DNA from: Nectonema munidae
Taxonomy: Eukaryota > Nematomorpha > Nectonematoida > Nectonematidae
DNA: 64,000 nucleotides
NCBI GenBank assembly: GCA_030549495.1
Contig: JAUIRK010001021.1
Coordinates: forward strand, 124,001 to 188,000
Reading direction: 5' to 3'
The notes below the pieces were generated by a model. That model did no database searches and was not told the origin of the DNA. It saw only the letters and a list, made by a program, of their open reading frames with translations. The position numbers and the translations under genes were made by a program. Shown here piece by piece: positions 17,420-59,120 of this stretch; position 1 is the stretch's first letter, and the number at the start of each line of letters is the position of its first letter.

Positions 17420-18210
17420 TAAAAGATGCATAGTGACTAAATTATCAATACACCTTGAATGGATCCATGCATACAAAATGATCAATACATTATATATAAA
17501 TGATCCATACGAGCTAAATGATCCTAGCCTTAAAAACTCATGGGGGAGTCTACTCCGTGCGCATTTTGTAAGTTCAGTTACGTCGATTTTGCATTTGATG
17601 ATTACCAACTTGCATAAATAAGTAGATCTCTTATGCAAATCCACATCCCTAACATCACAACATATCTTAACCCCCGCCTTCCCTCTATTCACTTTTGAAA
17701 CATCCATAAATAACTCAATCACAAATGAATGGCTTTACTCAAACAATACCACCCCCTTATCACAATTTGCACTAAATAAAAACATTACTCTTCCCGCAAC
17801 ATAATAAGGTGGTTCACCTCACATTGCCCGTGTTATGCCTACTTCTATCATTTTAATTTGCACTCTAACCCTTTTTGCAGATTTGGCTGCCCTGATATTG
17901 AAACTCCAATTCACATTATTCTCTATAATTCTCCAATATTTTCATCAGAACGAAACAAACTCATTGAAAAAGCACATTTACATTTTCAAGATCCTCCCTC
18001 CTCTCTACTAAACTTCTTATCATACCCCAAAATCATTCACTACCTCTCTCTTTTCCATAATACAATAGAACCACTCCTCTCTACCCACCAACACTTAACT
18101 CCACCCTTATCAAACAACATGCAAACATATGTACAACCATACACAAGCAACCTAGATCATACTTTTCACAACACTAATCTTTCTCACTTCTATTTTAGAT
18201 GATAAACCCA
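17420..18210 (+). mobile_element. LINE 3' end: C-terminal zinc-knuckle region of a non-LTR retrotransposon
   Basis: The frame 17858-18202 contains NPFCRFGCPDIETPIHIILY, the C-x3-C ... ET.xHI...C-like motif found at the C-terminus of RT proteins of several LINE clades. Just upstream, with one frame change, WFTSHCPC matches the usual LLTGHxPxxxxL stretch. Farther upstream the frame is broken by stops. The preserved part is only the end of ORF2, so this is a 5'-truncated, decayed copy. Confidence 0.65.
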
Positions 18211-21200
18211 CTTCCCATCCTTACAAATCCCCAAGTTAGCAAATGACGCAAGCATATCAACCTACGTTGGAAAGTGCTTAGGTATCTCCTACCCACTACA
18301 TTCAAATGAATATGAATTACTATTGAATACATTTGTTTTCATATTTATTGATTTAATTTTACAAAATAAAATTTTATCGGTCACTTATTCTAGGGGCAAT
18401 TTATCTTGGGTTGTTTAGTCCTAACTTTTTAGACATTTAATAGATCATCGTTATTTTGGCATTGTAAAAGTTCGCCGGTGTAAATTCAGTTAGAGTTAAA
18501 CTTTTTCTAATAATGATGTATTTGATATTATACTTAGTTATTATTGGTTACTTGTTGTGGATCTTATTGATAACCAAGGTATCATGAGATTTTTATAAAC
18601 AATCTTAAAAGCTCTAAACATTCCGTGTTCTTTTTTAATATGAATATACAATTAAAAATTTTTTTATATCATTAAATCAGGGCTTGTTTCATTTAAAAGT
18701 AATTTCAATTGCAGTGATAGTAAAAAAAAATTTTTGCCGGTAATATGATGTTATTCTTGACTAATTTATGGAGATAAATAACTAGAAAAGTGTTGCGACT
18801 TTTTACACAATTAAAAACAAATACATTCAAATAAACAAAAATAAACCCTAACCGAAATAGCAAATTAATATAATTTGAATCAAAGAACCGCATGTTTTTT
18901 TAGCTTAAAAAACCCTTTTGCAATAATAGTACACATTAGTTTTTGTTTTATCATTTCCTTTTTTTAATGTTTTTTCTTATGTTTACGTTTTCCTTCTACG
19001 AACCTCCCCTCACCTTTTTATTATTAAATTAATTAAATTTACAGAAATATGAAACAAAGACTAATGGGTAATGTTAAATTGTTGATTTTAAGAAAGAGGC
19101 TCAATGGTTGTAAGCAGTAATTCAAATTTTTTGTCAGCCTGTTCTGTTACAAAAAAGACAAATTTGTCAGCAAATAAACTGATCAATTATGATTATTTCA
19201 CAATAAAATTTTAGAATAATGGTTAAACAAGCATCATTATGATGATGATGTGGGTGCTTATTTTACTGTACGGTCTGTACTATATAGATAAATAAATATT
19301 TTACTGTTCGCCGAACTCAGAAAATTCCGTGAGACGGTTCTAACGAACCGATGCGAACCGGCTGAATCTCACTACTGGTTGTAAAGGTATACCTCTCAGC
19401 TTAACAGTTGAGGATCAGTTCGATCCCCAAAGCTCCTGACTCTCAAAGACAAAACCAGACAACTGTGATTAACCATCTTTAAGCCTAATGTTGACATATA
19501 GCCTTACAGCTGAAAGTGATTTGACATCCAACCAACCTATCAACAAAGAAAGAGCTATTTTATCTCTAATAAATTTTCATTTTTAAAATTATCTACAATT
19601 TTTTTTTTATTTGAGTTTTTTGGTTAAGAAATGCATCCATAGAAAAGTATCCGAGTTTTAACACATAGGCCGAACTTTTTAAAACGTCCAGTAGGCTTAA
19701 CCGGTTTTCTGAGGAACCAGTTGGGAAAAGTTATACTATATAAATGCTATGTGTAGTTTCGATGCCATTAATGAATGAAATTGTTAAAATTTGATATTAA
19801 GAAACATGTAATTTTATAAATAAGAACCTACCTTAGCGACCACTGAATTTAGGGGCTGCGTGTCTTGAGTAATCTAAATTTCTTCAACGCTTGACAAATC
19901 CCATGTTAAACGCCTTATTTAAGAGACTCATTGTCTTATGCCACCAAGGACCTTGTTTTTCGACCCTATTCAAGGATAAAATCCTGAATTCAAGGACCTA
20001 ATTTTGCAAAAATGGAAGTAAAAGTGATAATCAATTTAAATTTATATTGTTCTTGCGTTATCCTTATCTAAATGCATGTCTATATGTAGTATGTGTACAG
20101 TAAAACATCCACCCTAGTCCTAGTGACTCAACCCAATAAGATTTAAAATAAAGACGTTTAGGTTGAGAAATAAAGCATCCTTTGAATGATCTCATAGTAC
20201 AGGTTTGACTGTATTTAAAAATTAAAAATACATTAATATTTAGAAGCAAATATTATTGTTAAACTTCATAAAGTAAAGATAAATGCCCATTTGGGGTCAG
20301 ACTAAAGTAAGCCGCAGACAAAAAGCATCATAAAATGAAAACTACCTGAAATATTCAGTACACAAGTTTGAAAATATACTAAATTCGAGTTTTTAAATCC
20401 AAAAAAAAATTATATTAAAAAATGATTTAAAACTTTCACTCCATATGCAATTTAATTCAAAAAATAAAATTTAGCAGTCATTTTATAGAGTTGCACTATT
20501 TTTTTGCATACCAAAAAAAAATGGAAAATTAAAAATTATTATAACATTTTAAATTTAAAGGATAGGGTCAAAAAATTTTTAAAAAATTAAATTTTAATGT
20601 CTTTTCATCTCAATAGAAGGTTATTCCAATATTTTCAAAAAATAACATTCGATTGAATGGTTATAAAGTTATTATGAGTGCATAGCAATATCACGAGAAA
20701 AATATATAACAATACACGAATGCCAGATTTTAAGTATTTATCTAATACCTTTTTAATTTTAAGTCTTTTTTGTAAATAAGGTATATATTTATTTCATCTC
20801 TTCCTTAATGGGGAAATCTAAATTTATTTCTACATTAATTTAATTATAAAAAATTTAATAATAAAAGAAATTTAATTTTCTTTTAATTATTCAATCATGT
20901 GGCCACAACCTATCTTGGTTTGTTCACTTTTTTAAATAAATCCTTTAAATCCTTTCTAGCAAGCTATATAGAAGACAAATTTTTGAGTTTAGTAAAGTGG
21001 AGTCTGAATTAAATTCTAAAAAAATAGAAAATGAAAAATTTATTAAAAACAAACGTATTCCTAGACTCACCTTAAAAATATTCCAAATTTTCTTGATATG
21101 GACACTATAAATGATTTCAAAGGTGAAATGGGGCAAAAAAACACATTTTCAAAAAATTTATTTCCTATAATACTTTATATCCTATATTACTTTGCTGAAA

Positions 21201-21256
21201 AGCATGAAATACTTCTGTATAAAAACCTATAGAAATCTCATATTATACATACACAT
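18211..21256. other. Gene-free stretch with TE debris and a possible tRNA-derived SINE
   Basis: No host gene is supported. At 19330-19378 the sequence ends in CTGAATCTCACTACTG, whose reverse complement resembles a hAT terminal repeat; no partner end was found. At 19380-19440 there is a B-box-like GTTCGATCCCC preceded by a hairpin that could be an anticodon arm, which suggests a tRNA-derived SINE. The rest is AT-rich and unassigned. Confidence 0.4.
19380..19440 (+). repeat. Possible tRNA-derived SINE head
   Basis: GATCAGTTCGATCCCC fits a Pol III B box. The preceding CTCAGCTTAACAGTTGAG can fold as an anticodon-like arm. No intact A box or acceptor stem was found, so this is not called as a tRNA gene. 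Confidence 0.35.
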
Positions 21257-22440
21257 TAGAGGTGTACCGAATATTCGGTAACTATTCGTTATTCGGCCTA
21301 TTCGGTCATTTTTCTCACTATTAGGCCTTTTTGTGGACTATTCGGTACCGAATAATTTTATATTATACGGGTATTTTACCACCCCCATGTGGCTCACCAG
21401 GCTACTTAAATGGCTATAGCTATACCTTAATGGCTTTTTTGAACAACTTTATTAATTAAATGCAAACAAGAATATGAACACAAATAAAACATAAGAATAT
21501 GAAAGAAAAAATGAAAAAGTATATGGCTAATGCAAACATGAATATGAACACAAAAAGTAAATACGGTGATTACTAAGCTATTGCTTAATACCTAGTCAGA
21601 AGACTCATTAGTCAGTACTGTACTTATATTGATAAATTTTGACATTCAAAGTTGTTAGGGATCCACTGTGCTGTTAAGCTTATGAACGGAAAGTTTGCTG
21701 TAGTTGCAGTCCATATATCTGTTGTTAAATAAATAAAATTTGCTGTTAGTACCTCAGCTTCAACTTTCTTAAATAGCTGATTATATATATTTGGGACAAT
21801 CTTATCAGAAAAATATCTCCTACGTGGAATACTATATTTAGGGCAAATTTTTTCATAAGGCGTTTGAAACCTTATAGTGTGTAGGTTGTTTGATGCGCCT
21901 TACATACATAAGCCACCTATGCTGGTTTACAGGCAACTACACGTTTAAAACCTTCATTTTCAACAACTGAAAATGGCTGTGTATCTACAGCAATTATCTC
22001 TAATTAATTTGTGAAGTTCAACAGCTCTATGGTTATTTATGATCCATATTTTCTTTCTCTCCGGAGAGAGAGATTTTTTGCAATCCTTCCCTCTCTTGAA
22101 ACCTTATCATTGCATAAATTACACAAACAGTATGTTGGATCATTTTCACGAGGCTTAAAATATTTCCATACGACACTGCGACTTTGAAAATTCAAACTAT
22201 AATTGTATTTCTAATTATGAATATTATATAATGAACAATCGTTATAATTGCTAGGTAAGAGTTTCTAAAAAGATAAAAATAAAATATACAATTAATATAA
22301 ACATAAAAATGGCTAAAACAACATAAAACATATAGACATAAAAGAATATTATGTGTATTCGGCCGAATATTCGGCCATTACCGAATAGTATGCAGCCGAA
22401 TATTTAGTATTCGGCAAAAATGCTGTTCGGTGCATCTCTA
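21257..22440 (-). mobile_element. hAT transposon deletion derivative with perfect 8-bp target duplication
   Basis: The element starts TAGAGGTGTACCGAATATTC and ends ATGCTGTTCGGTGCATCTCTA-type sequence, an inverted match. Both ends are flanked by ATACACAT, an exact 8-bp duplication as expected for hAT. The interior read on the minus strand is a broken transposase: a BED-finger-like segment (WKYFKPRENDPTYCLCNLC) near 22060-22165, then AVDTQPFSVVENEGFKRVV near 21945-22005 with stops and frame changes. At 1184 bp it is far shorter than an autonomous hAT, so it is non-autonomous. Confidence 0.88.
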
Positions 22441-22610
22441 ATACACATACACCAGCATTTATATAAGATTATTGTGTACAATTTTTGCTTATTTATTTTT
22501 CCTTTAAAAAGTGCATGGGGCAAAATCAAAAATTTTAAGGGGGGGGGGGGCAAGATTAATACAGGGGGGGGGGGCACGTGCCCCAAAATTATATAGGTAG
22601 CGCGGGCACT
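22441..22610. repeat. Poly-G MITE-like segment next to the hAT element
   Basis: Two G tracts (about 22541-22552 and 22565-22574) lie close to CACGTGCCCC and are followed by TAGCGCGGGCACTG, which looks like a hAT-type terminus. The left boundary could not be placed, so the element assignment is uncertain. Confidence 0.4.
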
Positions 22611-23858
22611 GTGTTGTTGATATATTTAGTAGAAGGAGGCTTTTTATAGGGTGGAAAAATCTGCCATATGGAGATGAAGTAATAGGGCGTTTCTATTATG
22701 TTACAATCAAACACCAGTATGGGCTTTCGCTTACTTTGATTCGTTAGAGTAATGTTCAACATGCACAGGGACCCAATAGTCAGTTCATAATAAAAAGTAT
22801 TTCTTAAGAAGAATAAGAAGAAATTTTTAATAACATAAATCTGAATCATTTAAAAGAAAGAAATAGAAAATTATTTTTCTTTATGTCTTAGAATAAAAAA
22901 ATGCTCAAAATGTAACTAGTCACTGCTGACGTGTGGCAGCACTTAGGTACGGGCAATTTTATCTTATATTTTTAGTTTATTTACACATTTTTTTCTCATT
23001 TTTTAAATTTATCTAAATGTGTTTAGCTCCAAGCATTATTATTTTTTACGGATTAATTTAATTTCTTTTAAATAAAAAGTAACATTTTTTTTATTTTAGA
23101 ATTAAGTAATAAATGGTGGTTAGATTGTAAGTACTCAAATAAATATAAAATTAATTGTAACATTGGAAAAAAATCTAAAAATTGCTAACTCTTCCTCCTG
23201 AATTTCTAAGATGGTTAACAAGTAACTGCATATGTAAGAAATTTTTATATATGATAAAAAAAATCTACACATTCACTCTGCCGTTTTTGTTGTGAAAAAA
23301 TTGAAGATACTAATTATTTAATAAATGTGAGAAAACTCAATTTTTGATAGGAAACTTTATTGCAAATTGTTTGAAATAACGCGGATTTATTATTATTAAA
23401 TGACTTAATAAAATTTTTATAAAATCTCAACTTATTAAACACCTATCAATGTTAATCAAACATATTGAAAAACTGCTTAATTTAAATTCCACCTAAATTT
23501 ATTTCTTCCTTTTTTTGTTTTTAATTTTTTATTTAAATCGTCACTCCTCACTTTCAAAGTTTATACAAGGCAACTATTTTAAACATCTTTTTTCAATCAA
23601 TTATTGAAGCTTTATGCCAGCTTTCGAGTCCTCAGTGACTTACAAGCTTTGTAAATCAATTAATACATTAAGGTAATTTATATTAACTATTTTGTCTTAG
23701 TTATTTTTAAGTCATTAGGAGTTCATTTTTTATTATAATTTTTAGACCTCAATTTGTATTCCTAGTTCCATTTTGATTTTAACCTAATTTTTAGAAATTT
23801 GTTGATTCAAAATTATTAATATTATAAAAATTACTTTGTTTAATTGCCATTTATTTGA
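22611..23858. other. AT-rich stretch, nothing recognised
   Basis: No gene or element is supported. The longest open frame (22589-22849, minus) is AT-biased and matches no family I recognise. Composition changes abruptly at about 23870, where the GC-rich retroelement starts. Confidence 0.5.
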
Positions 23859-24659
23859 TTGTTCAATGCTAATGAAATCCCGGAGGGGGATATCACCGGG
23901 CCGGGTTGTATAGTAAAGAGATATGGGGATAGAGGGCAGGTTAATCTTATTACTGCGGCGCCTATCATTTCGGTAAGGGACTGGCCCCTTCAGGCTAGAT
24001 GCCTCAAACAGTTGATCTGTGCCGCACTAAAATCCCGAGCGAGTAGAACAAATCTATGTTGCTCGATATCGTCATGCAACTCCCCAACCACGTTTTGATC
24101 TGGCTATGGTTATGAAATCCTTGGCCCCAACGGCGTTCCAGGTAATGGGATAAGCGGCAGTATCTTCACTATTCTTTAAAATCAAGAATATTTGATATAA
24201 ATGATAAGAGGATATAATCTTCTTTTGATCCTTCAACTTCTTGGTTGTGTTTGGATTTTTGCCTGCTTGTGGCTGTGGCTTTGTGTTTCGACTTTGGCCG
24301 TGGCCTTGTCTTTGCTTTGCCTATTTCTTGACTTTGGCCTTGGCTTTGTTTTTGACTTTGTGTCAGATACGGGCTGCTTATATAGGCAGCTTATAGGCGA
24401 AAGGCGGGAAACCCTACCATTAGTTCTTTAAACCAGCCTGTTCTTACTGATAACTGATTTGTTATCACTGGGGAGAGGTCCGACTAACTGGCACCGTCCC
24501 TTTGATCCAAGAGCCGACACTCCCTTGAAGTGCCTCCTATCCTGTATGTGTTATTCGAGATCTGGGTTTGCTGGAAGTTCTTATTCCAAAATTTGAACAC
24601 TTTGTCCAAGATATCTAACGTTTCCAAGTCCTAGGACTGGAAGGTTATACCATATCTGT

Positions 24660-25560
24660 GTAGGAATTGGCCTTGGCCTACCATTCTAGATGGCTCATAT
24701 GCTGGGTTTTCTTTAGAAGGGATGTATGCAATCCCTTCTCTGAGGTGGTCTAGTTCCTCTCTTTAGGATGTAGCTAGCTACTGATGATACTAGCTGACTT
24801 CTGAGTCCGACTTAATCTGGAACTCTGGATATTTCATGAAAGCCACAGTGATAGGTAATAGTTCTAAATTCGTAATGTCCCAATTGAGGTTTACAATTCC
24901 AATCGAGTTTGCTTTGTTATTAGCAAACCCTAGCCTGGTGAGGGAGGCGTCCACGAAAATCAAACCCTTGGGTGTGCTGGGGTTGAACATCCTCCAGTCA
25001 GAGAAAATGGTATTCCATCCTTCTTTAAGAAGCCTCACCGTATGATGGTCGATGGTTTTCTTCAAGACTCGGAAACCGAGGGAGAAGAATCTTAGTCTGT
25101 GCGTGAGGGTCCCTAGGTAGTAGGTGATAATTCCTAGGATCCTCTGCTTCCATCTGATTGACTGGGCTCATCTCATTAGGGCTGCTTTTACTAGCGCCAC
25201 TAGTGCTTTGACTACCAGGGGCCTATTTTCCCGGAATGCCCATGGTGTGGTCTTTGAGATGGCTTCCAAGAAGATTAGTGACTGTGTTGCTTCAAGAATG
25301 GTTTTTCTTCTGTTAATGACAATCTTACATTCATCTTCCAGGAAATGGACAAATCCGTTTGTCCAGTCATTAGTTATCTGTATCGTGGTGACCAGAATCA
25401 AAAAGTCATTGAGGTAAACTATGATCTTGATCTCCGTTTTTGGATGCCGGCTCAGGAACACTCCTTTTAATGCACTAAGTTTGAACACTGTCAAAATTTC
25501 TTTCCTGAGATGAGAACTGGGGCGTATCCATCCTCCAGGATTCTTCTAACCGATTTCTTC
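24660..25560 (-). pseudogene. Reverse transcriptase-RNase H fragment
   Basis: Minus-strand reading gives GWIRPSSHLRKEI, the start of an RT domain, then jumps to IVYLNDFLI, the YxDD catalytic box with Asn in place of the first Asp. The fingers and palm between these motifs are missing. Next come QSLIFLEAISKT (FLG-like motif), a TGA at about 25154, then IFVDASLTRLGF and ITNLELLP (RNase H DAS and LEL motifs) and finally YIPSKENPAYEPSR, the usual end of RNase H with ADxxSR altered. The order RT-RH is that of DIRS and Gypsy elements; the motif spelling looks more like DIRS to me, at modest confidence. Confidence 0.75.
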
Positions 25561-26140
25561 TTTAAGTCTTGAGGGGGAACAAAGAGTGGGTTAGTGACAG
25601 TGAACGTAGCATTATGGGGCAGATCCAATGACGTGGTGACCTGATGAAATTCTGCTACAATGTGGTCTAGGGTGGCTAAGTCCAGGATGGACTCAATTTG
25701 GGTTTGGGGCTTGCTCGGTTTTCTCTTATCCCCCTTATCTACTTTTGGGTTTTGCCCACGCTCCTGATCGTTCTCAGAGATCGGCTGATTGTCTTTTTCT
25801 TCATTTCTGATAGGAACTTCACTCTCGCTCTCGTATCCTGAGTCGGGATGGTCATTGATGGTTTCTTCGGGGTCCCACGAAGAACCTTCTCTACTCCTCT
25901 GGGGAGTGTAAATTTTTATTGTTTAAATACCAAGCTAAGAAGTCAACCATCTCTTGAGGGGACTGATCCTCTCCGGGTAATAACACATCCAACTCCGAAA
26001 GATTTTTTTGACCCAACAGTGAGGATGGTGGTAAGACCTCGTCCAATTCTTGGTTAGTAAGAAATGCGAATGATTCTTCTACCGTTCCGGTCCCACCAGG
26101 AGAGAGAGGGAGGAAGGAGTCTAACTCCCCTGAAGTGATT
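25491..26140 (-). pseudogene. Gag-like acidic ORFs upstream of the RT
   Basis: One frame runs to a TAG at 25891-25893 and contains ELDEVLPPSSLLGQ and QEMVDFLAWYLNNK. A second frame, shifted by one, continues from about 25915 to a TGA at 25491 and contains DPEETINDHPDSGYESESE and LDLPHNATFTVTNPLFV. Both are acidic and read as one original protein interrupted by a frame change. The position 5' of the RT suggests Gag or a Gag-Pol linker; there is no homology I can name. Confidence 0.5.
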
Positions 26141-46449: not shown

Positions 46450-46779
46450 TCTATGGGCTACCTATCAAACACCTGCGGTACCAAAACTCTTCCGTTACTT
46501 ACTGACATTTTTTTTTTCATCGACCATATCTCCGGAACGGCTGAACCGATTCGGTCCGGATCCTCGGGGGATGAGAGGGATACACCTATCCATCATATCC
46601 ATCAAAAAAAAAAATTCGGAGGTATAGCCTTTTCAAAACGGAAACGTGAGACTAGAGAAAAGTATAGCAGCTAGAGCAAAAATTCCAACGGGGATATGAT
46701 GGATAGACCTGTCCCCGTCTTTTAAGCAAAAAAATTTTCCAGTACCATTATGTAGAACCATTTTGCCAGGAGATTTCGG

Positions 46780-47075
46780 TACTTACTGACGTAAAAAGTC
46801 AAAAAAAGTACCGAAAAATGCATTAGAAGTATATACGAAGGTGTACATAAGTATATACGAAGCATATATGAAGCCTTTGTAAAGCAGTATAATGTATTAG
46901 CAAAGATATACGAATAGGTTTTTGACAATAAAAACGTCAGTAAGTGCCATAATCTCCTGGTATTTTTTGAGTTTTTTTTTCTAGGAAATTTCGATACTTA
47001 ATGACGTAAAAAGTCAAAAAAAGTACCGAAAAATGCATTAGAAGTATATACGAAGGTGTACATAAGTATATACGA
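46780..47075 (+). repeat. Direct duplication of about 85 bp
   Basis: The segment from GACGTAAAAAGTCAAAAAAA to GTACATAAGTATATACGAAG at 46788-46862 recurs at 46999-47073, nearly identical. Both copies follow a TACTTACTGACG/TACTTAATGACG motif. Confidence 0.85.
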
Positions 47076-47149
47076 AGGTCTTATAAGTATGGCTTTTAAA
47101 CTACAAGTTAAATCTTTCTGAAATTTTGCATGGCTATTCATTATACATA

Positions 47150-48640
47150 CTACTATCATAATCTCTCATAAAAAAAAATTTTGGAATAAATTTTCCAATA
47201 CCCCCCCCCCCCCCCTTGGGAAAAATTGTCACTTAGTGACAAAATTTCCTGGCTTTTTAATTAAAAGAGATATTCAAATTCTGTTTGCAGATTCAGAATC
47301 TACGCATAAATCCCTCTCAGAATCACCTATAAAATAATTTTCGAAAAAAATTATCCAATACCCCCCCCCCCCTTTGGAAAAAAAGTCAGTAAGTGACAAA
47401 ATTTCCTAACTTTTTAATTAAAAGAGATATTCAAATTCTGATTGCAGATTTAGAATCTACGCATAAAACTGAGTAAGAAACGCCTCTTTACATGTGTAAA
47501 GATAATTTAAAAAAAAAAAAAAATTAAAAATAGAAAACATTAAATTTAACGCTGAATTGTGCCAAAAGTAAAGTAAAATGGTTAAAACTAATAGAATATT
47601 CGAAATCTACGTAAAAAACTGAACCAGAATCGTATAATTAAAATTTAGTTATAAATTTAATAATATGTATAAAAATAATTCAAAAAGTCAACTCATATAC
47701 TATATATATGTGTACAAAGTATAGCGATTTTCATTAACATTTCCAAATTGACATATTGAAAACCCCTTTTTTGCGATAACTCAATAATTATAAGTCCAAT
47801 CTTGTATTAATGGGTATCAAAATGTTCGTCTCTGCAAGAGCTTTCGAATGATACCAGTTTCAAGTTATTCGGATTTGTGGTTCAGGTTTTAGAACGAAAA
47901 GACACTTTTTGAGCTAAAAAAAGGACTTAGGGTTAAGTAAAATCACTAATATAGACCTCTAAAATAATGAAAATCTAACATATTAAAGTACTATCCGATG
48001 TAAAATTTGATTTTCTTTCGAATGGCCTAGGTTAGAAGTCTGTAAGTAGTGTAGTTCCAGAGTTACGATGCTTTAAATGTCTAAAAATGGGAAAAAACAT
48101 CAAATTTCAAATAGGGTAGCATCTAAATCCAAATATATCAAGCCGATCTCTTAGATATTTAAGCAAAATATTTTATTAATAATGTTCTACAACTTTGTAA
48201 AGTTATAAGTGGCTGTGATAAATATAAATCTATTTTATACACTCTGAAACTTATCTATATATATGTACAAATAGTAAAATCTTCGATATCTTTTTAATTA
48301 TAAGAGATATTCAAATTCTGATTGCAGATTTGGAATCTACGCCTAAAACTGAGTCAGAATCATCTATAAAATAATTTTCTAAAAAATTCTCCAATACCCC
48401 CCCCCCCCCTTGGGAAAAAAGGTCAGTAAGTAACACTTTTCCTGGTAATATTAAAAAAATGTCATAACTTTTTAATTAGAAGAGATATTCAAATTCTGAT
48501 TGCAGATTCGGAATCTACGCCTAAAACTGAGTAAGAATCACCTATAATTCGTTATAACTTTTTAATTATAAGAGATATTCAATTTCTGATTGCAGATTCG
48601 AAATCTACGCTTAAAACTGAGTCTGAATCAATTATAAAAA
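47150..48640 (+). repeat. Left array of C-tract repeat units
   Basis: Units contain GAGATATTCAAATTCTGATT, GCAGATTCGGAATCTACGC, a CTGAGTCAGAATC-type segment, TCCAATAC followed by 9-16 C and TTGGGAAAA, then GTCAGTAAGTGAC. Copies are seen near 47165, 47270, 47400, 48300, 48475 and 48565. The part 47461-48290 is also present as a whole at 53588-54415. Confidence 0.85.
47461..48290 (+). repeat. Large direct repeat, left copy
   Basis: About 830 bp matching 53588-54415 in the same orientation with few differences by eye. It includes the landmarks ATGTGTACAAAGTATAGCGA and GCAAGAGCTTTCGAATGATA. The two copies bracket the recombinase gene. Confidence 0.88.
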
Positions 48641-51639
48641 ATTAATATAATAATTTTGTATAAATATATAAAAAAAATTGAACATAAAAAACAATTTATT
48701 TTTTTAATAATCCATCTTAATTTATCATACAATTGTTTAGGTTCATATTTTGAAAGCGAATCATTCGTTGCCATTACATCTTTAACTTCATATAAATATA
48801 TACATGAAGAATTGATATATTTTTCAAAAATTTTGATTAACTTTATGTCATCTTTTGTAAAGGAAAACGTTTCTTTCTTTGCCTTTTTCCTCAAATATTT
48901 ATCCACAAGCCCCTTTTCCAATCTAACTTTGAGGAAGCGTTGGCATAATGGACTTTCTTCAGATATTAATGATAAGTTTATATCATTAATAGGATAACTT
49001 TGCCTTTCTGGGTTTTTAGAAGTAGTAGGAGGCGAATTATATTTGGAATAAATTTGATTAGGTGATGGAGAGAGTTGAGGAGGTGTAAGCGTATATGAAG
49101 GTGTAGATAAAACAGTTTGTGATTGAAGAATTGTTGATTTTGGAGGTGTATGTTTATAAATGGTTTTTTAAGAGATGATGATAAAGGAGGATGTGAAGAG
49201 GATGCTGGTGAAGGAGGAGGAGAACAGGATGGTAAAGGAGGAAGAGAACAGGATGGTAAAGGAGGAAGAGAACAGGATGGTAAAGGAGGAAGATGTAAGG
49301 AGGAGGCTGGAGAAGGAGGAGGAGAACAAGATGGTAAAGGAGGAAGAGAACAGGATGGTAAAGGAGGAAGATGTAAGGAGGAGGCTGGTGAAGAAGGAGG
49401 AGAACAGGATGGTAAAGGAGGAAGAGAACAGGATGGTAAAGGAGGAAGATGTAAGGAGGAGGCTGCTGAAGGAGGAGGAGAACAGGATGGTGAAGAAGGA
49501 GAATATGATGGTGAAGGAGGAGCAGGTGAAGAAAATTGGAAGTATTGATGCGTTGGAGAAGAATTCTTATAGGATGAAGGATTAAATTTTAGGATTTTGC
49601 TTGGCCCTACAAATAAATAAATATTTAAATAAATAAACAAAATTGTTTAAATAAAGTAAATTTACTTTTTTTTATAATATCTTCAGAATCCGAAGAACTT
49701 TGGGAAAAACTTTCTGAAAATTCATCTACGAATTTAACAATTTTGCTTTCTTCTAACAAAAAAATAAATGTACATTAGAAAAGAAAAAAAAACTAATTAC
49801 TTTTCTTTTTGAAAGACTCTGATAAATTTTCCAAAACTTTATTTATTTTTGTTTGTGATTTTTGATTACTTATCAGTTTATCAGTGTGATCATAATACCT
49901 AAAAAAAATTAATTAAAAAAATATATATATATATAATTAATTATATACATTCTTTGGGTTTTTTCTGAATGATTCATAATATTTGCCAAATCTGGCATAT
50001 GTTCTTCATAATGATATTTAAAAAAGGTCACCAAAGATTTTCTTAAAATGTGGTTACTAATACTTTTATTAAGTATCGCTTTTGCATATCTGTTTAAAAT
50101 TAAAGTTTTTAAAACAATAAAAAAAACATAAAAAAAATATAATACGAAGAAAAAATTTTTCCAACGTAAGATGTTGTTAGTTTGTTATTTGTTAGGGTTG
50201 TGAAAAAAAAATTGTTTTTGCAACAATTATTTTTTCTCCAATCACTAAAAACAAAATAAATAAAGTAAATGAACATAAAGAAATCAAACATAAAGCTTAC
50301 TTTAAGTTAATATTCATTTTTTCATATAATGAGGTGCTGATCGACATAATTGCCGGACCTCTTCTTTCATTTTTGTGGGCCTTAACCCTTATCATTAAAT
50401 TTTTGTCATGTTGTTCGGCCGCTTCAAATTCGGAGATGGTCAAATTAATTGCCACTCCTACTCGTTGAGCGTTAACCGACAAAAATTTAATGATAAGATA
50501 GTCCCTTAAGCGGCACACATCTTTATTGGAAGGTGTCTTTTTTATAACTTTAAAAAGGAATTTAATGTTATAATGTTCATCCATTTCACTTAAAAATTTA
50601 TTGATTTCTTCCGAACTCAGAACTGTTGTCTGAGACATCAGTTCATGAGTTCGACAAATTGTTGCTTTCTTGGATCCTTTAAACATATAACGTAAAATTT
50701 TTAAAAAATTAATAAAAAAATTATATCTACCTTTAATTGTTCTATTAAATAATACGGAAAAAGTTTCCGTATCAAATTCAAACGAATCAGGAAATTTATT
50801 TTTGTACAGTTTAAAAAAATCTAAGAAACGATTCAAGTAAATGATATAACTTATAATAGTTCCTATTTAAAATAAAATTAAATAATTAATATACAAATTT
50901 TTTTTATAAAACCTGGTTGTTTTGCAACTTCCCATTTAAATATTATTGCGTTTTGAAACAAACTAATATCAGAGAAGACTTGCAACCATGTTTTGTTAGT
51001 GTAATACTTAACATAGTCAATGAAAACTTTAGATACCGATCTAAAGTTTTCGTAGCTTGCTTTTGGATTTTGACGGTCTAACAGACCCGACCCCAAACAA
51101 ATAAAAAAATTTAGTAAAATAATATGCAAATTTCCTAAATAAAAAAAAACTTATAATTTAATACGACTAATTAGTATAAATAAATTTACCCCATTTGTTT
51201 TGTTGACTTTCAAAAATTCGATAATATTTGGAATTAACAACAGGGCGAGTATCAACTTCTTTCGAAGTGAGAACCCACTCCACCTTCTTACCCTTATTTA
51301 GAGTATCATCTATTTCATTTTCTAAAAGTTAAGTTTGAATTATATTATACTCAATAAATAAAAAAAAAATACTTTCTAATTTGTGAACTTTTTTTAGATG
51401 TACTCTAATATTAGAATACGAAATTTTACAAATGTTACACTCTTCTTTATCTTTACCAGCACTAAAAACCTTCTGAGTTTTTGATAAATTAGTCACACTA
51501 TGTACATCTTGGATATGTCTTTTTAAGCGACATACCATTCTTCCACAATAAGAACATTCAAATTTCTAACAGAATATTAAATATTACACTTTAAATTCTA
51601 TACCTCAAAGTGAACAAAAAAACTTACTTTTAGAGACAT
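48628..51639 (-). CDS. Zinc-finger tyrosine recombinase (transposon-encoded), 11 exons
   Basis: Exons (minus): 51628-51639, 51373-51565, 51190-51321, 50913-51077, 50731-50862, 50301-50676, 50146-50244, 49949-50089, 49801-49898, 49666-49752 and 48628-49606. All junctions are GT-AG, phase is kept throughout, and all introns are about 50-170 nt (one of 54 nt at 50677-50730 could be retained in frame). The product would be about 804 residues. It starts MSLKKFECSYCGRM with two C2H2 fingers (residues about 6-27 and 40-62). The recombinase domain has R283 (AQRVGVA), K313 (KAHKN), H383-x-x-R386 (HILRKS), H410 (MNHSEKT) and Y418/Y419 (RMYYDH), the complete catalytic set. The tail is rich in Pro and Ser repeats and ends in a charged region (RLEKGLVDKYLRKK). 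One base is missing in an A run at 49164-49169, which breaks the last exon; otherwise it is intact. Such enzymes cut and rejoin DNA through the Tyr. No RT accompanies it, so Crypton-like is the nearest label. Confidence 0.85.
49195..49545 (-). repeat. 24-bp coding minisatellite in the recombinase tail
   Basis: On the plus strand GGTAAAGGAGGAAGAGAACA-type 24-nt units repeat, interrupted every two or three units by a GATGTAAGGAGGAGGCTGG segment, so there is a higher-order period of roughly 105-130 nt. On the coding strand this gives PLPSCSLP and PASSLHLPPLPSC repeats. Plus-strand Gly/Glu-rich frames here are shadows. Confidence 0.9.
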
Positions 51640-52203
51640 GTATATTATTTCAATGAAAAAGTAAAACAGCGAGGCAAAAATGAATTTGAAATGAAAAACT
51701 TCTAACTTAAAAAAAGTTATTAGAAATCGAAATACGTCACAAAAATAGTTTATAAAGAAATTGGGCATAGGTTCACCTTGGAAAACTGAAGAAAAACATA
51801 GGGCAAATCATTTGAAATTAATAGACCGGAATATTTTTTGAAAAAAAATTAATTTAAAAAAAGTATTATAAAAAACAAAAAAAAACTTTTTAGATCGTAA
51901 AATAGATAAAAAATAACGTTTTCTCCACCCCCGAAAACCTCAGAAAGGTGAAAATTCGGTTTTAGAAAAGTCAATTCGTCAAAAAAACGGACTTTGTTTT
52001 GGTTAAAAAATTGCAAAAAAATCGTGGCGTTAACTGCCCATTGGGCTATCCATCACTTTTTGTCAGGGGTCAGTGAACTGACCTCAAGTTAGTACAATGT
52101 ACTAACTCCATTCATCAAAACTTGACTCTATACTGTACTAATATTCCGTAATTCATCACTTTTTGACAGGATGGAATTTTTTGTATATTTTTTATTAAAA
52201 TAT
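51640..52203. promoter_or_regulatory. 5' region of the recombinase gene with a palindrome
   Basis: Upstream of the start codon the sequence is non-coding. ATCACTTTTTGTCAGG and ATCACTTTTTGACAGG lie at 52052 and 52156 as direct repeats. Between them GTTAGTAC-aat-GTACTAAC (52088-52106) is a perfect palindrome. A promoter is expected here, but no core element is certain; a recombinase-binding role for the palindrome is speculation. Confidence 0.35.
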
Positions 52204-52665
52204 TACCAAGGGGGGTACATCTAAATTTTGTTTTTTTTTTATAAATTTTTAAAAAAAGATTTTTATGATCCCGTTTATATTTTTCTATAATATTTGGCTC
52301 TCTGGGGTAGTTTTTGATGCTGATTCCAGCGCTGCCTTCAGTTTTTTCATATCTCATACCGGTCCCGATCTAGGGCGCCCTGAAGTAGCCAAAATTTAAA
52401 GCTGAGAGACCGTGACCTATATAATAGTTGAATATGTTGTAGTTTTTGATGCTGATTTCAACGGTGCAATCAGTTTTTCCATATCTCATACCGTTCCCGA
52501 TCGACGGCGCCTTGAAGTAACCAAAATTTTAATTTTAAGGACCGTGACTAATATAATAGTTGAATCTAATGTAGTTTTTGATGCTAATTCCAACGGTGCA
52601 ATTAGTTTTTCCATATCTTATACGGTTCGGAAACTACCGGGACCCGGGTTCGGCCCGGAGGAAAA
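52204..52665. repeat. Left arm of a foldback (inverted) repeat
   Basis: This arm is the reverse complement of 55770-56258. Matching landmarks: GGCTCTCTGGGGTAGTTTTT here versus TACCCCAGAGAGCC at 56111; GGGACCCGGGTTCGGCCCGG here versus CCGGGCCGAACCCGGGTCCC at 55776. Inside the arm a unit of about 130 bp (TTTTTGATGCTGATTCCAAC with TCAGTTTTTCCATATCTCAT) is repeated in tandem at 52313, 52441 and 52573, with a fourth at 52704. Confidence 0.85.
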
Positions 52666-52829
52666 ATGTTTGGACGTAAAAAATATAATAGTTTATTTTG
52701 GTATAGTTTTTGATGCTTATTCGAACGGCGCAATCAGTTTTTCTATATCTTATACTTTTTTTTTTTAAAAGAAAAAAAGTAAAAACGTCAGTAAGTAACA
52801 GTTTTCCTGGTAATATTAAAAAAATGTCA

Positions 52830-55640
52830 TAAGTTTTTAATTATAAGAGATATTCAAATTCTGATTGCATATTCGGAATCTACGCATAAAACTGAGTCAG
52901 AATCATCTATAAAATAATTTTCTAAAAAATTCTCCAATACCCCCCCCCCCCCCCCCCCTTGGGAAAAAAGGTCAGTAAGTAACAGTTTTCCTGGTAATAT
53001 TAAAAAAATGTCATAACTTTTTAATTAGAAGAGATATTCAAATTCTGATTGCAGATTCGGAATCTACGCATAAAACTGAGTCAGAACTATAAAAAATATT
53101 TGAAAAAATTCTCCAATACCCCCCCCCCCCCCCCCCTTGGAAAAAAAGGTCAGTAAGTAACAGTTTTCCTGGTAATATTAAAAAAATGTCATAAGTTTTT
53201 AATTATAAGAGATATTCAAATTCTGATTGCATATTCGGAATCTACGCATAAAATTGAGTCAGAATCATCTATAAAATAATTTTCTAAAAAATCCCTTGGG
53301 AAAAAAGGTCAGTAAGTAACAGTTTTCCTGGTAATATTAAAAAAATGTCATAACTTTTTAATTAGAAGAGATATTCAAATTCTGATTGCAGATTCGGAAT
53401 CTACGCCTAAAACTGAGTAAGAATCACCTATAAAATAATTTTCTAAAAAAATTTTCCAATAAAAATTGTTTATTTTTCTGGAAAAATAAATTTTCCCTTG
53501 GGGAAAAGAGGTCCGTTAGTGACATTTCGTTATAACTTTTTAATTATAAGAGATATTCAATTTCTGATTGCAGATTCGTAATCTACGCATAAAACTGAGT
53601 AAGAAACGTCTCTTCACATGTGTAAAAATGATTTAAAAAAAAAAATTAAAAATATATTAAATTTAACGCTGAATTATGCCAAAAGTAAAATAAAATGGGT
53701 AAAACTAATAGAATATTTGAAATCTACGCAAAAAACTGATCCTGAATCGAATAATTTAAATTTAGTTATAATTTTAATAATATGTATAATAATAATTCAA
53801 AAAGTCAACTCATATACTATATATATGTGTACAAAGTATAGCGATTTTCAGTAACATTTCCAAATTGACATATTGAAAACATAATATTTGCGATAACTCA
53901 GCAATTATAAGTCCAATCTCGTAATATTGGGTATCAAAATATTCGTCTCTGCAAGAGCTTTCGAATGATACCAGTTTCAAGTTATTCGGATTTGTGGTTC
54001 AGGTTTTAGAACGAAAAAACACTTTTTGAGCTAAAAATAGGACTTAGGGTTAAGTAAAATCACTGATACTGACCTTTAAAATAAAGAAAAGCTAATATAT
54101 TAAAGTATTATCCGATGTAAAATTTGATTTTCTTTCGAATGGCGTATGTTAGAAGTCTGTAAGTAATGTAGTTTCAGAGTTACAGTGCTTTAAATGTCCA
54201 AAAATGGGAAAAAACATCAAATTTCACATAGGGTAGTATCTAAATCCAAATATATAAAGCCGATCTCTTAGATATTTTACCAAAAGATTCTCTTAATAAT
54301 GTTCTACAACTTTGTAAAGTTACAAGTGGGTGCGATAAATATAAATACTTTTTATACACTCTGAAACTTATCTATATATATGTACAAATAGTAAAATCTT
54401 CGATATCTTTGTAATTATAGGATATTCAAATTCTGATTGCAGATTCGGAATCTACGCCTAAAACTGAGTAAGAATCACCTATAAAATAATTTTCTAAAAA
54501 AATTCTCCAATACCCCCCCCCCCTTGGGAAAAAAGGTCAGTAAGTGACACTTTTTTTGGTAATATTAAAAAAATGTCATAACTTTTTAATTAGAAGAGAT
54601 ATTCAAATTCTGATTGCAGATTCGAAATCTACGCCTAAAACTGAGTAAGAATCACCTATAAAATAATTTTCTAAAAAAATTTTCCAATAAAATATTCCTT
54701 GGGGAAAAGAGGTCCGTTAGTGACATTTCGTCCTAACTTTTTAATTATAAGAGATATTCAAATTCTGATTGCAGATTCGGAATCTACGCATAAATCCATC
54801 TCAGAATCAACTATAAAATTAAATTAAAAAAATTTTTTTTGTCCCCGGGCCGAATTCGGCTATCCCGTGGATCGGGAACGGTATGAGATATGGAAAAACT
54901 GATTATACCATTGGAATCAGCGTCAAATTCTCTACAAGACCTTAAACGTGCTCTAAATCGCTTGAAAATAGTGCTAAAATGCTTATATTTGAGTAAAATA
55001 TCACATTGTGAAATTATATCAGATTTTCATTGTAAGCAACGTAGTCAGTAAGTGACAACATTTCCTAACTTTTTAATTAGAAGAGATATTCAAATTCTGA
55101 TTGCAGATTCGGAATCTACGCATAAATCCCTCTCAAAATCAACTATAAAAAATTTTTTTGAAAAAATTCTCCAATACCCCCCCTGGGAAAAAAAGTCAGT
55201 AAGTGAGAAAATTTCCTAACTTTTTAATTAAAAGAGATATTCAAATTCTGATTGCAGATTCGAAATCTAAGCTTAAAACTGAGTCTGAATCAACTATAAA
55301 ATAATTTTCGAAAAAAATTATCCAATACCCCCCCCCCCCCCCCCCTTGGGAAAAATTGTCACTTAGTGACAAAATTTCCTGGCTTTTTAATTAAGAGATA
55401 TTCAAATTCTGTTTGCAGATTCGGAATCCATGCATAAATCCCTCTCAGAATCACCTATAAAATAATTTTCTAAAAAAAATTTCCAATACCCCCCCCCCCC
55501 CCCCCTTGGGAAAAATTGTCACTTAGTGACAAAATTTCCTGGCTTTTTAATTAAAAGAGATATTCAAATTCTGTTTGCAGATTCGGAATCTACGCATAAA
55601 TCCCTCTCAGAATCAATTAAAAAAAAATTCGAAAATTTTT
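52830..55640 (+). repeat. Right array of C-tract repeat units
   Basis: About thirteen units of the same repeat as at 47150-48640, in the same orientation, occupy the interval between the two foldback arms (near 52850, 53035, 53215, 53385, 53550, 54420, 54595, 54755, 55085, 55240, 55400 and 55560). C tracts vary from about 7 to 18. A lone copy of the foldback 130-bp unit interrupts it at 54840-54950. Confidence 0.85.
53588..54415 (+). repeat. Large direct repeat, right copy
   Basis: Counterpart of 47461-48290, same orientation, on the other side of the recombinase gene; the offset is about 6.1 kb. Confidence 0.88.
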
Positions 55641-55769
55641 CAAGTTTTTGTCTTGCCTCATAACTGCGCAGCCAAAACTACAAGTCCGATCCTTCTGAAA
55701 CTTTATATAATTGTTTATAAATGTATTCTATATCATATTCAGTGATTATTTTGTTCACGTCCCATCATG

Positions 55770-56258
55770 TTGACCCCGGGCCGAACCCGGGTCCCGGTAG
55801 TTCCCGAACGGTATGAGATATGGAAAAACTGATTGCACCGTTGGAATCAGCATCAAAAACTACATCAGATTCAACTATTATATTAGTTACGTCCCAAAAT
55901 TTTTGATCCCGGGACCGAATTCGGCTGTCCCGTGGATCGGGAACGGTATGAGATATGGAAAAACTGATTGCACCGTTGGAATCAGCATCAAAAACTACAT
56001 CAGATTCAACTATTATATTGGTCACGGCCACTCAGGTTCAAATTTTGGCTACTTCGGGGGGCCGTAGATCGGGACCGGTATGAGATATGAAAAAACTGAA
56101 GGCAGCGCTGGAATCAGCATAAAAAATTACCCCAGAGAGCCAAATATTATAGAAAAATATAAACAGGATCATAAAAATCTTTTTTTAAAAATTTATAAAA
56201 AAAAATAAATAAAAAATTCGGGAAAATTATACCAAAGTACCCCCCCCCCCCCTTGGCT
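55770..56258. repeat. Right arm of the foldback repeat
   Basis: Reverse complement of the left arm, with tandem 130-bp units at about 55806, 55938 and 56075. It ends in a C tract followed by TTGGCTA, mirroring ACCAAGGGGGGTAC at 52205. The arms are about 3.1 kb apart. Confidence 0.85.
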
Positions 56259-56329
56259 AATATATAGAAATCTATAGAAAAAAATTTTTTTTTTTACCCA
56301 GGTACCTTACCTTAGGGAAAAATCCAAAA

Positions 56330-56485
56330 TGTCAGTAAGTAATCGAACGTCAGTAAGTAATGTCAGTAAGTAACGGAAAAAAGGTCAGTAAGTAATCCAA
56401 CAGCCTGGGAAATTACTTACTGACGCTCCAGTACCATCTCCCAGGACCTCAGATTACTTACTGACGTCAGTAAGTGCCAGTTTTC
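56330..56485. repeat. Cluster of GTCAGTAAGT motifs in both orientations
   Basis: Within about 150 bp, GTCAGTAAGTAA or GTCAGTAAGTGCC occurs five times and its complement TTACTTACTGACG twice, ending in the palindrome-like TTACTTACTGACGTCAGTAA. It is the likely right boundary of the recombinase element and may be a protein-binding array. Confidence 0.7.
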
Positions 56486-56598
56486 CTTGTATAAATGTCA
56501 ATTTTTTAAAAATAATTATTAAAATATTTGATGTTTAATATTTATTTTGCTCATTCAAATCTTGTTTTTCCAATCAACATTTTTGGCTACTAAGAATA

Positions 56599-59120
56599 CA
56601 GTGGAGCCCGCTTATTGTCATACCCTCCGTGTATGAATAAATTATGACATAATCCGGGATATTCTAATATCCGGGCTTAGCTATTTTCATGATTATGGTG
56701 GTTATAACGATTTAACTGTGCGTGATTATACATGTAGGGGCCTACACTGATAAGTGGCAACACGATGGTTAACAATTAAAACAAGTATTTATTACATTTT
56801 TCAGACATTATTATCACAATATACAAATAAAAAATTTATTTAGTATCATTTTTTTCATACATTATTTATTAAAATGTACAAATAAAAAATATATACACAC
56901 GCATTGACAAGTAGGCCTAAACAATCCATCAGGTAAGTTTTTTTTTCATTTGAAGTTGTGGATCTGCGAATTGTCTATTTAGATTTAAAAAAAGTCTGTT
57001 ATGCAGGTCTGTTTGGCAGATGTTGCAACCGCTGTTTGCAGCTCACTTTCCAGAGTGTGTTGTGGTGAGATCGTGGCCGATGGCTTCCAGATAGGCACGC
57101 ACAGATGACAGGCCGTCGAGGGCAACATGGGCCTTTGGTGGTGGAGGCAGTTCAGCTGACTCATCGTCACTGTCAGCAGTGGGGCAGACATCTGGCTGGC
57201 GTACTGTGTCACAGATGTCGCTTCTGTCAAGACCCCATGGCACTCAGTCTGGGAATCAACGTCCACGTAGGCCTGGAACTCTTCTGTTGTCATCCCATCT
57301 GGTGCCTCGACCTGGTGGTCTGCAGTGGGAGCATCTGGAGCAGAGGGGATGCGGAAGCCGGCATGGGCAAAGCAGTTTGCCACACTGGACTGTTTTACAT
57401 CCTGCCATGCCACTTTCAACATGTGCATAGCATCCAGGACTGTAAACTTGCGGGCGAAGGTGCTGGCAGAGAACTCAGCTTCACCTGCGTCGATGTATGC
57501 AACAATCTTCTGAACCACCTTCTTCCTGTAGAGTGCCTTCAGGTTTCGGATGATCCCCATGTCACATGGCTGCATGATGGAGGTCGTGTTGGGCGGCAGA
57601 AAGAAGAGGCGAATGTGGGGAAGGTCATCTGCTGCATCCTTGGGGTGAGCCGAGCAGTTGTCGAGGACAAGGGCAATGTGCCGCCCCTGCCTGGCCGTGT
57701 CACGTTCAAAGTCTCTTAGCCAGTCTCGAAAAAGGTTGCCAGTCATCCATGCGTTTTTATTGTTCATGTATGGGACTGGAAGCTGGGGGACTCCTCTAAA
57801 GCACCTGGGCTTGGCACTTTTGCCAACCACCAGTAGAGGACGCTTGTCACTGCCGTCCATGTTGGCAGTGACGAGGGCGGTGAGACGCTCCTTGACCTTC
57901 TTGCTGCGGCTCAGCTTCTGTGCTACATCTGCCAATGTGCCGTCAGGTAGGGCACGGAAGTAGATTCCCGTCTCATCTGCGTTGTAGACGTCACAGGGTT
58001 CATACTTCTCAAGCAGCTCGGGCAGCACAGTTGAAAGCCATGTGTCTGAAGCTGGGATGTCAGCATCACTTTTCTCCCCATGTGCCTTTTTATATTTGAT
58101 CGAGAAACGGTCCTTCCAACGGCAGATCCAGCCATTGGTTGCCTTGAAATCGTCCTTTCCTAGGTTGGCAGCGAGCTGGTTGGCCTTCTTCTCCAGGACT
58201 GCAGTGGTGATGGGACAGCCATGGGTACGGGCATCCACGAACCAGGTGTAAAGGGCCGTCTCGACGTCAGCTGCCTTGCCAGTCCGCATGCGCATGCGGT
58301 TGCCGTTCTTGTTCTGCTCAGCATCTTGCAGGATCTGGGACTTCTTGCTGAGAATTTTTGAAATGGTGGACTGTGAAACACCATACGTTTTGGACAATTG
58401 AGTTTGTGATTGGCTAGATGACCACTTTATGATCTCCAGCTTCTGGGCAAGGGACAAGTCATTTCGCTTACGTTTAGCACTCATGATTAAAAACTGAACT
58501 GAAGAATAGCTTAGCACAGTGTCCGTAACAATAGAGCAGATCGGCAAATGTTGTTTTGATTGGGAAGTTTATTTAAGATCAAAAGAATGCATCCTTTCAA
58601 GACCTGTGTGTGCAGCTGTGTGTGTGTGTGTTGCTATGCGTGCGTGGGTGCATGTGCGAAGCTTCGTGATCACAATGTTGCTTTCATGATCACATGTGAT
58701 TTATCGACGCATTAACCTGTCAGAAGTCTCACCAAATGGTTAAAGCCAAATGATTTTTAACGGGAAAGTGCGACCATGCGCGAACACTCATCATGGTGAT
58801 GCTTATCGATAACATCGTCATGGTCATGGTTAATTAAGGGATTAGACTTTGATGTAACTTATTGGTGCATTACTGTTGGTTTAGTGATAAGATAGGAGTT
58901 CAAGTTGATGAAAAAATGCGTGTACCGGCGCGATAATCCTGCAAAATGTTATTCTAAAAATTAATTTTGGCTAATTTTCTATGACAATAAACGAGAATAT
59001 CTATGACATTAAACGAGTAAATTTCTATGTTTTGTAAAGGAAATGGTTTGGGATTTCAATATTTTATGACAATAAACGGGATATTCTATAAAACGGTATG
59101 ATATTAAGTGGGCACTACTG
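56599..59120 (-). mobile_element. Complete Tigger/pogo DNA transposon
   Basis: Terminal inverted repeats CAGTGGAGCCCGCTTATTGT (left) and CAGTAGTGCCCACTTAATAT (right, read inward) are flanked by TA on both sides, the Tc1/mariner-pogo target. Subterminal segments around CATACC and GACAATAAACG also recur. The length of 2.52 kb and the single intact transposase frame are typical of Tigger. The coding part is far richer in GC than the host. Confidence 0.93.
56985..58484 (-). CDS. Tigger/pogo transposase (CENP-B-like, DDE)
   Basis: The protein cuts and pastes its own element at TA sites. Starting at the Met of MSAKRKRNDLS it has 499 residues: an N-terminal pipsqueak-type HTH (about 1-55, LSLAQKLEII ... 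YGVSQSTISKIL), a CENP-B-type HTH (about 70-135, NGWICRWKDRF), and a DDE_1 catalytic domain with YNADETGIY (D170), IALVLDNCSAHP (D275) and PPNTTSIMQPCDMG (D308), the DDD triad of the pogo group. The frame is uninterrupted. A start 21 codons upstream (58547) is possible, but its extension looks unlike transposase. Several plus-strand frames at 57105-58251 are shadows of this gene. The intact catalytic residues suggest recent activity. Confidence 0.95.
   Translation of the reverse strand: MSAKRKRNDLSLAQKLEIIKWSSSQSQTQLSKTYGVSQSTISKILSKKSQILQDAEQNKNGNRMRMRTGKAADVETALYTWFVDARTHGCPITTAVLEKKANQLAANLGKDDFKATNGWICRWKDRFSIKYKKAHGEKSDADIPASDTWLSTVLPELLEKYEPCDVYNADETGIYFRALPDGTLADVAQKLSRSKKVKERLTALVTANMDGSDKRPLLVVGKSAKPRCFRGVPQLPVPYMNNKNAWMTGNLFRDWLRDFERDTARQGRHIALVLDNCSAHPKDAADDLPHIRLFFLPPNTTSIMQPCDMGIIRNLKALYRKKVVQKIVAYIDAGEAEFSASTFARKFTVLDAMHMLKVAWQDVKQSSVANCFAHAGFRIPSAPDAPTADHQVEAPDGMTTEEFQAYVDVDSQTECHGVLTEATSVTQYASQMSAPLLTVTMSQLNCLHHQRPMLPSTACHLCVPIWKPSATISPQHTLESELQTAVATSAKQTCITDFF

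Follow-up and report, generated by a model that had tools for sequence, protein, structure and literature searches.

In animals, transposons with a tyrosine recombinase (YR) as their only enzyme are said to be rare and little understood (PMC4157794). By description, the closest enzymes to the one reported here are the telomere-targeting C2H2 integrases of endogenous nimaviruses. These have a C2H2 zinc-binding domain and insert in (TAACC/GGTTA)n; they are characterized as arm-binding YRs not close to those of DIRS, Enterprise or Crypton elements, and multi-exon genes are described in the group related to them (PMC10871703). Cryptons are portrayed in PMC3212892 as having, in animals, neither terminal repeats nor a C-terminal domain, with gene-less, non-autonomous members known, and, in fungi and oomycetes, 4- to 6-bp direct repeats at the ends. 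DIRS-type elements carry a reverse transcriptase (RT) and have split repeats and internal repeats related to their termini, as described in PMC4157794, and TATE of Leishmania, a YR element in telomeric hexamer repeats, is treated as a YR retroelement (PMC6681497).

Extent and layout of the element

Within the window (the whole 64,000-nucleotide stretch of DNA analysed), positions 46459..56497 are one copy of a mobile element that occurs as several subfamilies in the same genome. The source assembly comprises 211.6 Mb in 748 contigs, and other copies are labelled by contig (C65, C9 and so on). The element is roughly 10,000 letters long in the window, with an intron-rich YR as its single recognisable enzyme gene. 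The subfamily-A copies C9 and C132 agree with the window as far left as 46477-46479, and C281 as far right as 56487; comparison of junctions places the edges at ~46459 and ~56497. An earlier note, drawn from the letters of the window, had bounded the block at 46450..56490, good to ~10 bp against these copy-derived edges. The ends lie beyond the coding region, at edges shared between copies, rather than just outside it, the arrangement that the note had associated with an ordinary Crypton. The features are as follows.

46459..56497, no strand: whole element; ends approximate (~10 bp), left edge common to C9 and C132, right edge to C281, extended by junction comparison
46459..46468, plus strand: left junction stretch TACCTATCAA, corresponding to the spacer AACCCTAATT in C65 and C9 (aligned by eye)
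46495..46506, plus strand: left terminal motif TTACTTACTGAC
47192..48644, no strand: left block of repeat units with the first copy of a ~740-bp segment (47543-48283)
48628..51639, minus strand: YR gene, 11 exons
51700..52250, no strand: noncoding region beside the gene start, with counterparts at this place in 18 other contigs
52232..52507, plus strand: foldback arm 1, 95% complementary to 55930-56205
52772..55629, no strand: right block of repeat units with the second copy of the ~740-bp segment (53660-54400)
55930..56205, minus strand: foldback arm 2
56331..56475, no strand: right terminal cluster of seven motif copies in both orientations, with CCCAGGACCTCAG at 56440-56452
56476..56497, plus strand: right junction stretch GCCAGTTTTCCTTG..., without the CTAAC found at five other right ends

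As aligned, the window's left junction stretch TACCTATCAA may be diverged or partly host.

The window also holds coding exons resembling USP5, an EF-Tu-type GTPase (which we take to be EFL1-like) and MCRS1, and by its gene content it is eukaryotic. Directly to the right of the element, a GC-rich stretch at 56985-58568 contains an open CENP-B/Tc5-type transposase (DDE_1, E 1.8e-43), and at 10479-10749 a 134-bp unit occurs as a tandem pair (88%). An Rfam search of the window gave no match.

The recombinase gene and its product

The exons of the YR gene and the positions of its diagnostic residues are listed below.

51639-51628, 51565-51373, 51321-51190, 51134-50913, 50862-50731, 50676-50301, 50244-50146, 50089-49949, 49898-49801, 49752-49666, 49606-48628, minus strand: YR exons
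51373..51565, minus strand: exon 2, both C2H2 fingers
50301..50676, minus strand: exon 6, catalytic R302 and K332
49949..50089, minus strand: exon 8, H402-x-x-R405 and H429
49892-49894, minus strand: exon 9, Y438

Ten introns, all GT-AG and 48-62 bp long in the gene model, separate the eleven exons. Exons 1-10 encode 497 residues, comprising two C2H2 fingers (signatures CSYC..HIQDVH and CNIC..HLKKVH), followed by a linker and then by the tyrosine recombinase domain. The R-K-HxxR-H-Y catalytic set of tyrosine recombinases is complete, with R302, K332, H402-x-x-R405, H429 and Y438 in register with archaeal XerA, which a profile of six copies matches at E 4.3e-5. The earlier note had thus read the gene at 48628-51639 correctly in its two fingers, its catalytic residues and its eleven exons, and the phage-integrase comparison that it proposed yielded a PHROG integrase match at E 3.7e-9. 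Its product of 804 residues, in contrast, is not what the window encodes: the frame stops after 706 residues because of a frameshift in an A-run near 49160, where the window has six A and copy C84 seven. The last exon encodes a Pro/Ser-rich repeat and a C-terminal part, a putative domain, that is present in other copies and lies in a different frame in the window.

Over 457 codons, dN/dS is 0.088 between the window and C281, 0.079 between the window and C9, and 0.135 between C281 and C9; the YR protein was therefore under purifying selection.

With weak matches filtered out, Pfam gave no match at E ≤ 1 in the window to DUF3504, the Crypton-derived domain, or to DUF3435, the YR domain of the fungal Starship elements. 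NCBIfam returned one match, at chance level, and PDB entry 9i5v_14, whose molecule name is unrelated, matched at E 5.3e-5 in one search and at 0.036 with the six-copy profile. Searches for wider relatives gave none for the single protein at E ≤ 0.001, none for the alignment at E ≤ 0.01 and none in viral contigs; as they depend on short words in common, they are barely informative about distant relatives in eukaryotes.

Five RT queries from the same genome gave no match in 46459-56497, in line with the earlier note, and ten of the open reading frames of the element outside the gene, scanned with Pfam, have matches only below curated cut-offs. RT relics occur in the window at 24.7-25.7 kb; the stretch 23859-25700 that includes them holds relics of an RT-bearing element related to those beside C274 and C66.

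Ends, empty site and core

The C65 copy spans 10,370 bp (497782 to 508151) inside a LINE. Its left junction reads ..GCCAACC/CTAATTAGAGTCCTGGGACC.. and its right junction ..GTGACACGGACTCT/AACC/TCCCTACG.., with slashes at the boundaries. When joined, the C65 flanks align across the junction with an uninterrupted LINE in C9 that has a single AACC, and this is the one clean empty site. Most simply, AACC would be the element's end and would already have stood in the LINE before insertion; end and target would then have it in common, which is what recombination by a tyrosine recombinase requires. It may alternatively be a 4-bp target duplication, which is compatible with a single clean site. The alignment of copies that the earlier note had suggested for finding ends and duplications has accordingly defined the ends, and has given AACC at this site. 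As in YR DNA transposons generally, there are defined ends and an insertion with an empty site (C65, one site). We set C281 aside as an empty-site case, its left side being a mosaic of Helitron-like and RT fragments.

From the C65 ends, the expected circle junction is GGACTCT-AACCCTAATT-AGAGTCC, in which 7-bp inverted arms (GGACTCT/AGAGTCC in subfamily B) surround a telomere-like 10-bp spacer, AACCCTAATT. Of the six right ends, five carry CTAAC, as CTAACC in C65, C740, C618 and C281 and as CTAAC in C717, with unrelated flanks after it; the window's own right end is the exception. The five left ends read AACCCTAAT(C/T)AG in C9 and C65, TTTAATTAG in C740, TACCCTTAAA in C132 and TACCTATCAA in the window.

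A short copy of 2477 bp in C740, within a minisatellite, has the same ends as C65; its left part agrees with C65 at 99.6% (1489 bp) and its right part at 97.7% (565 bp), and a YR profile search of it gave no match. This copy may have been moved in trans, or recombination between arrays may have removed its gene in place. Because the minisatellite is variable, the core there is unreadable. The flanks of C740 (L048, L052) and the left flank of C132 (L020/L021), which belong to different subfamilies, consist of a similar minisatellite with CCTGTGTTTGAGTGC-like units, as judged by eye; such a minisatellite is a possible second preferred target.

These ends bear on two other readings of the locus. 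An animal-type Crypton (CryptonA/I or a sister group) that had acquired introns, fingers and repeats would move by the same mechanism and be nothing new in kind, and it is in keeping with a YR as the sole recognisable enzyme, with a short sequence common to end and target at C65, and with the known non-autonomous animal Cryptons (PMC3212892). However, the animal groups are described there without terminal repeats or a C-terminal domain, and the window gave no Pfam DUF3504 match at E ≤ 1, so that we regard this origin as unlikely. A host gene sitting immobile in a satellite could likewise show purifying selection and many introns, but it is scarcely credible in view of the edges common to gene and repeats across loci and of the C65 insertion into a LINE with its empty site.

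Terminal motifs and subfamilies

The terminal motif differs by subfamily, being ACTTACTGAC in A and AGAAAGTGAC in B. Counted on both strands, the A and B motifs number 19/0 in the window, 13/0 in C9, 13/0 in C281b, 3/0 in C132 and 2/0 in C84. B-type ends show the reverse, with 0/2 in L051, 0/7 in L037, 0/4 in L039, 0/7 in L048, 0/2 in L052 and 0/5 in L049, and an interior B piece, L036, has 1/0; among these loci, L051, L036 and L037 are one copy, as are L048 and L052. Neither motif occurs in L038, L040, C274, C66, C281c, C326, C134 or C743.

Strict pairing of motif with recombinase is made less likely by C281a and C126, each with six B motifs and no A motif in units beside a type-A gene fragment, whose exons are 73-89% identical over the matched parts. 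C281a and C126 look like duplicates of one region. Since they combine B motifs with a type-A gene, either the pairing of motif with enzyme is not strict or the region is a mosaic.

The earlier note had called the motif clusters unique to the block. Within the window this holds, with all 19 exact matches of GTCAGTAAGT inside the block (0.06 expected; none of 100 shuffles reached 19), but within the genome it does not. Beside the right cluster, CCAGGACCTCAG is conserved in the window, C281, C65 and C740 and differs in C618 and C717; it has eight matches in the genome, four of them elsewhere (control, 2 and 2).

The repeat body

Two families of diverged repeat units, with 13 and 16 positions, together occupy 17 distinct positions, against the 20 or so units of the earlier note, which had also reported the foldback; its arms are 276 bp long and 95% complementary. 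The ~740-bp segment is present in two direct copies, 93% alike, that flank the gene. Several internal units resemble the right end, with GTCAGTAAGTAACAGTTTTCCTGG inside and GTCAGTAAGTGCCAGTTTTCCTTG at the terminus.

In C65 and C618, the body is more alike to that of the window than the protein is: 92-94% over the full ~740-bp segment versus 42-63% in the listed exons. This difference points to exchange or homogenization of the noncoding body between subfamilies.

Copies across the genome

The protein search, which scored 86 of 191 candidates, gave at least 153 exon-level matches; those listed lie on 35 contigs and range from 97% down to 28% identity. By hand count, 24 of these 35 contigs have a body match within ~5 kb of the gene (C132 by separate comparison), and two more (C326, C693) have one at 10-11 kb among the matches listed. 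The YR element with many introns that the earlier note had described is thus supported, and in other copies its body travels with the gene. No nearby body appears among the matches listed for the remaining nine (C218, C658, C246, C656, C248, C696, C231, C10, C78). As the body queries came from the window's own subfamily and the figures from the matches listed, there may be genes without a body. The body likewise occurs without a gene match among those listed, for example in C559, C39 and C713.

The layout is conserved in several copies. In C9, C65 and C618, the gene is flanked on either side by segments of the ~740-bp type in the orientation of the window (the left one partial in C618), and one segment lies in a consistent place in C281, C84, C14, C743 and C317. 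C571 was excluded from this set because its segment and its gene match are oriented differently with respect to each other. At the gene start, a matching noncoding region is also found in C9, C274, C609, C281, C1, C84, C317, C65, C578, C695, C325, C89, C719, C134, C618, C66, C156 and C743.

RT open reading frames adjoin copies in C274/C84, C281 and C126, and the direct ~740-bp copies around the gene with a second repeat pair recall split repeats (PMC4157794); both would suit a YR retroelement of the DIRS, PAT, Ngaro or VIPER type that had lost its RT, with the internal repeats as remains of split repeats. Neither the direct ~740-bp pair nor the inverted arms are terminal in the element. The adjoining RTs are not uniform: their family varies, as do their strand and side with respect to the YR gene. 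Moreover, the window element has no RT within it, the second repeat pair is inverted and not direct, and the loci searched gave only exon fragments of the element's own YR family. A retroelement ancestry is, in our judgement, quite improbable. An RT-linked element was also considered for C274/C84 and C281 and set aside, as these loci disagree in strand, side and breakpoints; C84 and C274, which have both flanks in common, are probably one insertion seen twice.

Some of these contigs carry other unusual sequences. At C274:7975-11208 (L011/L012), a 1078-aa open reading frame joins a mononegavirus capping methyltransferase-like stretch (PF14314, E 3.2e-5, just below the cut-off) to an RT (RVT_1, E 1.4e-17), an unusual combination, and C84 6233-8965 (L009) is related to this region. 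At ~1-33 kb, C326 holds a tandem and then inverted array of ~3.86-kb units (L025, L026). Every unit carries the 5' half of a diverged YR gene together with an open reading frame of 626 aa (653 aa stop to stop) that has no Pfam match above the cut-off.

Telomere-type repeats

The telomere-type repeat of this genome is (CCCTAA)n. A CCCTAA 21-mer occurs 2658 times in forward and 20 times in reverse orientation (control, 0 and 0) and is present at the first bases of contig C467, and the five-base arthropod-type telomere repeat has three matches (control, 31 and 17).

In C559, by match positions, element units and a foldback arm at 15256-25621 lie between (CCCTAA)n at 14720-14861 and (CCCTAA)n from 25920. 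The right gap from arm to repeat, 299 bp, fits the ~282-292 bp from arm to end in the window; the left gap, 395 bp, is a misfit to the window's ~780 bp. No YR was found on C559 among the matches listed, and a genome search for an exact telomere-joined left end found none, with three one-mismatch matches, none of them on C559. A third (CCCTAA)n tract lies at 3625-3670, ~11 kb to the left of the tract bordering the element repeats, and the DNA between it and the 14720 tract may be another insertion. On this sequence evidence, telomere targeting by the element is a well-founded lead rather than an established result.

The C2H2 domains of nimaviral YRs, and the insertion of some of these viruses in telomere repeats (PMC10871703), raise the alternative that the locus is the remnant of a large endogenous DNA virus, nimavirus-like, of which the integrase was kept. 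Against this stand the absence of any other coding found in the window element, the closed 10,370-bp unit inserted at C65 (its interior at 500.3-507.6 kb read in part) and the searched viral contigs, which held no relative, and we consider such a remnant very improbable.

Proposed mechanism

We think it probable that the element is a DNA transposon moved by its YR, with a core site at a circle junction and a telomere-like spacer that recombines with a partly matching target. The element ends would meet in a circle, where the inverted arms (GGACTCT/AGAGTCC in subfamily B) and the 10-bp spacer AACCCTAATT would form the core site to be recognised by the YR. Recombination would then take place between the spacer and a stretch of target that matches it in part, leaving only the bases common to both as flanks of the insertion. 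Host (CCCTAA)n is probably the natural target, and the scattered copies would have landed where a chance match allowed. The terminal motif, present in clusters at both ends, is probably what the zinc fingers bind, much as phage integrases do with their arm-binding domains. The internal units, several of them similar to the right end, may offer additional sites for binding or act as decoys.

We speculate, more tentatively and with the odds against it, that the element represents a new YR transposon superfamily that homes to telomeres by a lambda-like two-part site, exchanges its body among subfamilies with different enzymes, and was the cellular source of the telomere-specific integrases of nimaviruses. 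In such a two-part site, the catalytic domain would read the arms around a telomere-identical spacer while the fingers would read arm sites, which cluster at the ends.

Animal Cryptons have no recognisable ends. Here the ends, the one empty site, the spacer and the motifs provide a system for recombination tests. Several diverged recombinases, present in a single genome alongside different terminal motifs, would form a natural series for the study of changes in YR specificity. If the telomere link is true, the element would be a non-viral counterpart, and perhaps a source, of the integrases through which giant endogenous viruses are able to reside in telomere repeats.

Comparison with known systems

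The earlier reading of the element was largely right in its observations and partly supported in its interpretation. Its view that the combination matches no described family needs correction: the element fits the described families poorly, its structure departing from that of animal Cryptons as described, but the integration anatomy at C65 is Crypton-like, and C2H2 YRs that insert in telomere repeats are described in endogenous nimaviruses (PMC10871703).

Like Cryptons as described, the element is a YR-only DNA transposon with a short direct repeat shared with the target (here AACC, at one site) and gene-less derivatives. It differs in its inverted arms, terminal motif clusters, repeat body, fingers and C-terminal part, and in the lack of a DUF3504 match. 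It works like a Crypton, but we file it as a YR DNA transposon rather than as a Crypton. The nimaviral integrases resemble its YR in having a C2H2 domain, and telomere-type insertion may be represented here by C559, going by match positions; the nimaviral integrases, as described, are carried by large viral genomes and insert in TAACC/GGTTA, whereas the element is a ~10-kb, one-gene unit in a genome with the repeat CCCTAA, and no viral gene set was found in the window element.

With DIRS, PAT and Ngaro elements, in the available description, it shares a YR and internal repeats related to the termini, but it has no RT or RNase H inside and its second repeat pair is inverted. TATE is alike in combining a YR with placement in telomeric repeats; none of the RT features described for it are present here. 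The integrase of phage lambda acts on core-type inverted sites around a spacer and on separate arm-type sites. It serves as a model for the core and arm sites of the element, which has many more motif copies and in which arm binding would fall to the zinc fingers.

A search of the open literature (subscription journals, preprints and Repbase lie outside this coverage) yielded no transposon with the same combination of features. What is new is a two-ended element that unites inverted core arms, a telomere-like spacer, clusters of terminal motifs differing between subfamilies, and a shared repeat body.
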